Assembly: GCA_018399745.1 (NCBI GenBank)
Contig: JAGYNZ010000008.1
Location: 1-64,000, forward strand
From: Deltaproteobacteria bacterium
Lineage (GTDB): Bacteria > Desulfobacterota > Dissulfuribacteria > Dissulfuribacterales > UBA3076
DNA length: 64,000 nt
Direction of reading: 5' to 3'
A program made the translations under genes and the position numbers. Position 1 is the first letter of the stretch; every line of letters starts with the position of its first letter. The notes beneath the pieces were generated by a model. It had not been told where the DNA came from. It saw only the letters and a program-made list of their open reading frames with translations, and ran no database searches. Positions 16,178 through 28,060 of the stretch are shown here, piece after piece.

Positions 16178-18599
<2,422 letters not shown>

Positions 18600-18677
18600 C
18601 GCTACACAAAGATAAGTATCTGAATATATAAGGTATGGCGTATTTGCTTCCCATATTTTCTTATTAATTTCTGAAAA

Positions 18678-18683
18678 TATAAT
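18678..18683 (+). promoter_or_regulatory. TATAAT -10 candidate before the hpnM transcript
   Basis: A perfect TATAAT lies 41 bases before the ATG of the small reading frame at 18724, in the gap diverging from the ppx-like gene. I see no good -35 element at 16-18 bases, so this is weak evidence. Confidence 0.25.
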
Positions 18684-18723
18684 ACATTGATATTAATTCA
18701 ATAGTGGGGAAAGAGAAAGAAAC

Positions 18724-18979
18724 ATGTTAATTTTGAAAGGACACAATAGGCAATCCTGTTTTTCTGTAACGGTTTCGCGTTTAGATTTACTGAAGGGTAA
18801 ATCTGAAGGCCCCCTGGGATTTGGAAAGAAAATTCCATGATTTAAGGCAGTTTATTGCATATAATTCTCATAAATGGATAGTGACGGATTCCCAGGACTG
18901 TTATGATGATAAGGATAAGGTAAAACAGGTTCTGTATATGATAAACCAAACTTTTTTCGCAATCAGCAAAGAGCAATAA
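18724..18979 (+). pseudogene. possible frameshifted small gene immediately before hpnM
   Basis: An open frame starts at ATG 18724 (MLILKGHNRQSC...) and reads to codon GGC at 18808. The continuing coding-like sequence is one base out of frame after the five-C run at 18810-18814: it then reads PWDLERKFHDLRQFIAYNS and onward to a TAA at 18977-18979. Removing one C would give a continuous protein of about 84 residues. The TAA lies three bases before the hpnM ATG, as expected of an operon partner. I do not recognise the product. It may be a pseudogene, a sequencing error at the homopolymer or a programmed shift. Confidence 0.4.
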
Positions 18980-18982
18980 AAA

Positions 18983-19603
18983 ATGAGAAAACTTGGATGG
19001 ATAACCAGTTCTTGCATTTTGATCATTGGATTGGCCTCCCAGCTCTCAGGACAGCCTGTTCAGTCAAGAGCTGCGGATGTAATTGAAGGATTAAATAATG
19101 CTTTCGTTGAATCCATGAAAAGTGGAGATGAGCTTGGCTTTTCCGGGCGCTACATGCTTTTGGAGCCTGTCATAGAGAACAGCTTTGATTTTGCGTATAT
19201 ACTCAGAAAAATTACCGGGAGATACTGGAAGGATATGGACGAAAACCAGCGAAAGATGCTCTTGGATAATTATACTGTATGGACCATATCCAAGTATGCC
19301 CAACGTTTTCACCAATACACGGGACAACGTTTCGAAGTGGTTTCAGAAACTGAATTCAGACCACAGGTCATGAGTGTTAAGAGTAACCTGATAAAAGCGA
19401 ATAAGGAAATAATAGAATTCAGGTATTTTATGTTGGAAAATAATGGAAGCTGGCGTGTTGTTGATATTCAAGTTTCCGGTGTGAGCCAATTGGCCATGAA
19501 TCGCGCACAGTTCAAACAAGTGCTTAAAGATGAGGGATTCAAAGGATTAAATGAAGGCCTAAAGGAAAAAATAAAAGAGCTTTCCGCAATTGAAAAAGAC
19601 TGA
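18983..19603 (+). CDS. hpnM: HpnM, MlaC/Ttg2D-like periplasmic lipid-binding protein
   Basis: HpnM is the hopanoid-cluster member of the MlaC/Ttg2 family, soluble periplasmic carriers that ferry lipids between membranes. The 206 residues begin with a signal peptide (about 1-30, ending near SRA). The conserved patterns GFSGRYMLLEPVIENSFDF and WRVVDIQVSGVSQLAMNRAQF are typical of HpnM. It converges on hpnN, whose stop lies nine bases away on the other strand. The ribosome site is weak, consistent with coupling to the small gene just upstream. Confidence 0.9.
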   Translation: MRKLGWITSSCILIIGLASQLSGQPVQSRAADVIEGLNNAFVESMKSGDELGFSGRYMLLEPVIENSFDFAYILRKITGRYWKDMDENQRKMLLDNYTVWTISKYAQRFHQYTGQRFEVVSETEFRPQVMSVKSNLIKANKEIIEFRYFMLENNGSWRVVDIQVSGVSQLAMNRAQFKQVLKDEGFKGLNEGLKEKIKELSAIEKD

Positions 19604-27015: not shown

Positions 27016-27133
27016 TTTTTTCTACTTTTTTTTAGAATTCACACAAAATATTTTACACTTCCGATAGTGCATTATGTAGAATTATTCTAAAATTTAAAAG
27101 GTCTATAAGAGATATAAGCAGATAGAGCAGGAA

Positions 27134-28060
27134 ATGGAAATCATTCTGGCCAATCCGAGGGGGTTTTGTGCGGGTGTGATTCGGGCTATCAAGACAGTCC
27201 GGCTCACTCTTGAGAAATACGGCGCGCCTGTTTATGTTCTGCATGAAATTGTTCACAATAAGCACGTGATCCAGGAACTTCGGAAACAAGGGGCTGTTTT
27301 TGTTGAAAATCTCGCAGATATTCCGACGAGGGCCGTTACCATTTTCAGTGCTCACGGAGTCTCCAGGGCGGTAGAAAAACAAGCCACTGAACTTGGACTC
27401 AGAACCATCGACGCAACTTGTCCTCTGGTGGCCAGTGTCCATAGAATGGTGAGCAAATATCATAAAGAAGGATACAGTGTGGTCATCATAGGCCATCGTG
27501 ATCATCCTGAAGTGGAGGGAACTGCCGGAAGAATCAACGGGCATGTCCATCTCATATCAACCGTCGAGGAAGTTAGGACTATGAAGGTGAATGATTCCTC
27601 ACGCATGGCCTATGTCACTCAGACCACCCTGAGCCATGATGACATTGTCGAAGTGCGCAAAGCTCTGGAAAATCGGTTTCCAGATATCAAGGGACCGGCA
27701 TCGAACATCTGTTATGCTACTCAAAATCGGCAAAATGCCGTAAAAGAGCTTGCCGGTAAAACAGACGTGCTTTTTGTAGTAGGCTCAAAAAACAGCTCTA
27801 ACTCCAACCGGCTTAAGGAAGTGGGGATGCGCCAGGGAATTGATTGCTACCTGATCGATGATGCCGGTGATATTGATCCGGGGTGGCTTGAGGGTATACA
27901 ACGTGTTGGAGTGACGGCTGGGGCCTCTGCCCCGGAGCGCTTGGTTGATGGTGTAATAAATTGGCTCCGGCATCATGGGGCAACAACAGTTCAGGAGATG
28001 GTTGGTAAAAAAGAGGAGGTAAGATTCGAACCGGCAGGGCTTGACGAGGAATTGAGCTGA
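27134..28060 (+). CDS. ispH: 4-hydroxy-3-methylbut-2-enyl diphosphate reductase
   Basis: IspH is the last MEP-pathway enzyme and makes isopentenyl and dimethylallyl diphosphate with a [4Fe-4S] cluster. Its three cluster cysteines are C12 (NPRGFCAGV), C96 (DATCPLV) and C193. H41, H74 and H124 and the QTT motif (163-165) bind diphosphate, and E126 is the proton donor position. The 308-residue length is normal. It opens a plus-strand run with a DUF116 gene and hpnH, linking precursor supply to hopanoid modification. Confidence 0.96.
   Translation: MEIILANPRGFCAGVIRAIKTVRLTLEKYGAPVYVLHEIVHNKHVIQELRKQGAVFVENLADIPTRAVTIFSAHGVSRAVEKQATELGLRTIDATCPLVASVHRMVSKYHKEGYSVVIIGHRDHPEVEGTAGRINGHVHLISTVEEVRTMKVNDSSRMAYVTQTTLSHDDIVEVRKALENRFPDIKGPASNICYATQNRQNAVKELAGKTDVLFVVGSKNSSNSNRLKEVGMRQGIDCYLIDDAGDIDPGWLEGIQRVGVTAGASAPERLVDGVINWLRHHGATTVQEMVGKKEEVRFEPAGLDEELS

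Follow-up and report, generated by a model that had tools for sequence, protein, structure and literature searches.

The closest relatives of the two-frame stretch in front of hpnM were transposases of the Pfam family Transposase_29 (PF21804). One of these was found within the genus, in genome G004, where a frame of at least 763 residues runs off its contig and scored 50.3 bits against PF21804, the gathering score of which is 27 bits; the G004 protein also showed partial similarity to the transposase models of IS630, ISNCY, IS4 and IS481, each below its cut-off. Among 46 genomes of the order, two matched the G004 protein at E ≤ 1e-5 (G004 itself and G003), and a scan of genome contigs returned six loci, of which one is this same G004 contig listed by its record name. 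Three further relatives, L034, L035 and L036, scored 45.7, 56.5 and 48.2 bits against PF21804, and all four proteins scanned were above the gathering score. At L034, L035 and L036 the transposase was encoded in a single frame of 768-773 residues reading to a stop codon; the reading of L036 crosses a masked run close to the end, which leaves its last part uncertain, and the longer match at this locus included one TAA, upstream of the listed ATG. A perfect inverted repeat of 18 bases flanked the L034 element, with 2,482 bases between the arms, as expected of an insertion sequence. Arms of this repeat were also detected at other loci, namely the left arm unchanged at L037, the left arm with 3 mismatches at L033, and both arms, with 4 and 5 mismatches, at L035.

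The same insertion sequence was observed both in Deltaproteobacteria MAG UBA3076 and on a contig assigned to the MAG of an ANME-2 archaeon, with 93% DNA identity over 2,364 bases; the loci compared were L034 (PQXF01000025.1), L060, L061 and L033 (DFBQ01000197.1). The contig filed under ANME-2 encodes SecA (1238 bits, above the cut-off; 10 of the 18 listed ORFs of 220 or more residues were scanned). SecA is a bacterial protein, so this contig is probably bacterial. Cross-domain transfer of the insertion sequence was disfavoured on the same ground, and a bacterial contig was probably mis-binned into the archaeal MAG. A literature search on horizontal transfer of insertion-sequence transposases in the ANME and sulfate-reducing setting found nothing, and neither did one on UBA3076.

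The window analysed in this study was the whole 64,000-nucleotide stretch of contig JAGYNZ010000008.1, in which hpnM was found intact on the forward strand at 18983-19603. Its product scored 174.3 bits against TIGR03481 (NCBIfam; cut-off 160.1 bits) and carried an MlaC domain. The divergent neighbour, on the reverse strand at 17607-18599, was assigned to the Ppx/GppA phosphatase family (ppx) from the ORF list and a family match, and hpnN and hpnL, each above its model cut-off, were also located nearby on the opposite strand. Two forward-strand frames lie between ppx and hpnM. The first half starts at ATG 18724, ends at TGA 18838-18840 and encodes 38 residues. The second half, in a shifted frame, runs without a stop from 18794 to TAA 18977-18979, and its first start in the ORF list is TTG 18821. 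The frame changes at a CCCCC run (18810-18814, forward strand), and three bases (18980-18982) separate the TAA of the second frame from the ATG of hpnM at 18983. The initial annotation had described two frames that join at five C, give 84 residues together and end three bases 5' of hpnM, and this description was confirmed by the sequence and its frames.

The joined frame, queried as both halves with an X at the junction, was compared with a profile built from the four long transposase relatives, each of which exceeds the gathering score of PF21804. It scored 47.9 bits and was collinear with the profile over columns 631-699; the top score among 2,000 shuffled controls was 8.5 bits. The second half alone reached 31.8 bits (columns 655-699). 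The first half alone gave 2.8 bits, which was not significant, at columns 623-651, immediately preceding the columns of the second half, and its addition to the second half raised the score by 16 bits. At the DNA level, 18782-18947 matched L035 at 71% identity (120 of 170 columns; E 7e-12 for a search of the whole window), and the alignment was unbroken across the C run. As the profile match was collinear and the DNA alignment continuous across the C run, the two halves were once one frame, the tail of a transposase. The joined frame also matched the C-terminal end of the G004 frame (43% over query residues 14-74, E 2.7e-9), and a raw DNA search gave a weak match to the same place (E 6.4e-4). 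With the G004 protein as query, the single match in this genome at E ≤ 0.001 was the same stretch (5e-4); a second copy of it, in genome G005, is present yet went unreported at this threshold, which placed the search near its limit. Against Pfam, the joined 84 residues matched no family at E ≤ 1, and the stretch itself did not score above the gathering score of PF21804. Homologues of the joined protein do exist, and they are transposases. On these comparisons the joined frame is almost certainly a C-terminal transposase tail from an insertion sequence, now decayed. Judging from the profile columns, 18724-18840 is transposase tail up to the C run, and the remainder of it is out of frame.

Compared with the Transposase_29 transposases, with four of which it shares the C-terminal region (columns 631-699), this remnant has kept roughly one tenth of the protein, with a broken frame, and lies without element ends in the window. 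In a search of the six-frame translation of the window, taken as pieces of no fewer than 15 residues, only the second half passed the HMMER inclusion threshold with the profile (E 5e-9). The N-terminal 620-630 or so residues of the transposase were not found in the window, where only columns from about 623 on were detected, and the part absent includes the IS4-transposase-like stretch at 448-583. Allowing as many as 3 mismatches, the 18-base repeat of L034 was not matched anywhere in the window. L035 did align over 28 bases with window positions 27124-27151 (E 0.001), which is likely due to chance, since the L035 stretch, as judged by eye, codes for a charged part rich in lysine and glutamate. 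The remnant makes no functional transposase, and presumably no useful protein is made from it.

Short C-terminal tails of this transposase family were also observed in other genomes. An 84-residue open piece at L058 1414-1665 (G148:C220) scored 106 bits against the profile, its surroundings being read as ORFs only, and a piece at L039 2941-3105 (G010:C199) carried one TGA and matched with 43% at E 3e-4. Unlike the remnant beside hpnM, the G010 piece lies on C199 and the HpnM-like match of that genome on C207.

The second copy of the remnant was found between the same two genes in G005, a genome of the same genus, and scored 21.5 bits against the transposase profile. Two TAA codons interrupt the transposase frame in the G005 copy. 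At the C run this copy stays in the transposase frame, with a one-base length difference close by. In the global alignment the two copies differed in length by -1, -3, +1, -1 and +1; the BLAST alignment placed some of these differences otherwise, with the same net change of -3. No gaps were found in hpnM or ppx in the global alignment. The identity with G005 was 91.1% for ppx, 86.6% for hpnM, and 79% and 75% for the two halves of the remnant. The substitutions at codon positions 1/2/3 were 7/3/6 for 18724-18808 and 11/13/11 for 18815-18976. These are small numbers, and they exclude the six bases between the two segments; ppx showed an excess at the third position (29/16/43) that the remnant lacked. 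The distribution in hpnM (25/23/35) was itself weakly skewed and differed weakly from that of the remnant. Against neutrality, no stop has arisen within the second half in this genome, although nothing would hold a neutral remnant open. On these comparisons the remnant is a non-functional piece that is decaying separately in the two species. The initial annotation had described a possible small gene coupled to hpnM and had listed a recent pseudogene among its options; the term pseudogene was supported, but not its recent origin, its description as a small gene or its coupling to hpnM, as the stretch is a C-terminal piece of a protein of about 770 residues and the same piece, decayed differently, is carried by G005.

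It was also observed that one frame of the remnant in G005 (L006 4407-5159) is open into hpnM. Automatic start calling could wrongly lengthen HpnM there by about 45 residues.

Taken together, the locus is best explained by an insertion sequence, carrying a Transposase_29-type transposase of about 770 residues, that would have inserted between the Ppx/GppA gene and hpnM in an ancestor common to this species and that of G005. Most of the element would since have been lost, with about 250 bases near the C-terminus of the transposase remaining. This remnant would then have drifted with its reading frame unconstrained, so that this genome shows a shift of frame at the C run, and G005 two stops and several length changes.

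One alternative is compatible with the explanation above, and it concerns what the remnant may have become. The 64 bases upstream of it (18660-18723, forward strand) were identical to G005 at 61 positions, above hpnM (87%), ppx (91%) and both halves of the remnant. This block may be a promoter or leader of hpnM. That the block, the ribosome-site-like stretch, ATG 18724 and the remnant have together been exapted as hpnM promoter and leader is unlikely, as several observations count against it. Set against an 80% background, the binomial probability of the conservation was 5e-4, but it rose to 0.02 when the identity of hpnM was taken as the background and to 0.17 with that of ppx, and the choice of the block was made with the alignment already in view. 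A scan of 18560-19020 gave no match to the sigma-70 consensus. When 18655-18760 was searched in 11 family genomes, convincing matches were found in this genome and G005 only, the next best having E 0.05, and the stop of the second frame before hpnM is not kept in G005. An HpnM/MlaC-like match was detected in 10 of the 11 family genomes, this genome included, and the hpnM of G002 (81% identical) has neither block nor remnant before it: DNA similarity ends two bases before the start codon, and a different gene, an ABC transporter by eye, lies upstream. An 18-column similarity between the upstream region of hpnM in G002 and that in this genome was rejected as not significant, since 33 of 500 shuffles scored as high.

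A second alternative is a true small gene coupled to hpnM, with a miscalled base or an assembly error at the C run as the sole cause of the broken frame; it would fit a joined frame that is open for 84 residues and stops three bases 5' of hpnM. It was judged very improbable: the joined frame has its homologue in the tail of a far longer protein, and two stops interrupt this frame in the G005 copy. A search with the joined frame at E ≤ 1 gave matches in three of the 8 genomes of the genus, namely this one, G005 and G004. In G004 the match is the transposase on contig C151, and the HpnM/MlaC-like match lies on C49. The remnant stands before hpnM in this genome and G005 only, and no intact small gene was found before hpnM in any of the 8, the place where the initial annotation had proposed to look for one; around the hpnM-like genes of G007 and G009, the ORFs listed were those of at least 130 residues. 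In a draw of 395 genomes from the phylum, which did not include G004 or G005, the joined frame matched five at E ≤ 0.01, this genome among them. Of the other four, one was the G148 transposase piece described above, and the weak matches in G109, G253 and G274 did not match the transposase profile and were taken as chance. No literature linking hpnM or hopanoids with a transposase was found. A base-call error at the C run, even if present, would leave no intact gene, and the verdict is unchanged by it.

Some insertion-sequence transposases use a programmed frameshift, and the homopolymer run at the frame change had led the initial annotation to list a shifty site among its options, but a ribosome joining the two frames at the C run is scarcely credible here, because the G005 copy decayed differently, without a frame change at this run and yet with stops, while the two-frame arrangement is not conserved in L034, L035 or L036 (the last through its masked run) and no other part of the transposase was detected in the window.

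The transposon remnant, the reading preferred here, is an ordinary genomic fossil, not a new gene or a frameshift signal, and the 84-residue frame should be annotated neither as a gene nor as a case of frameshifting. It would instead serve as a mark of a transposon insertion common to two species of the genus. The block at 18660-18723 is worth testing as a promoter of hpnM. If the remnant and this block did act together as promoter and leader, the regulation of hopanoid transport in this branch of the genus would derive in part from a transposon.
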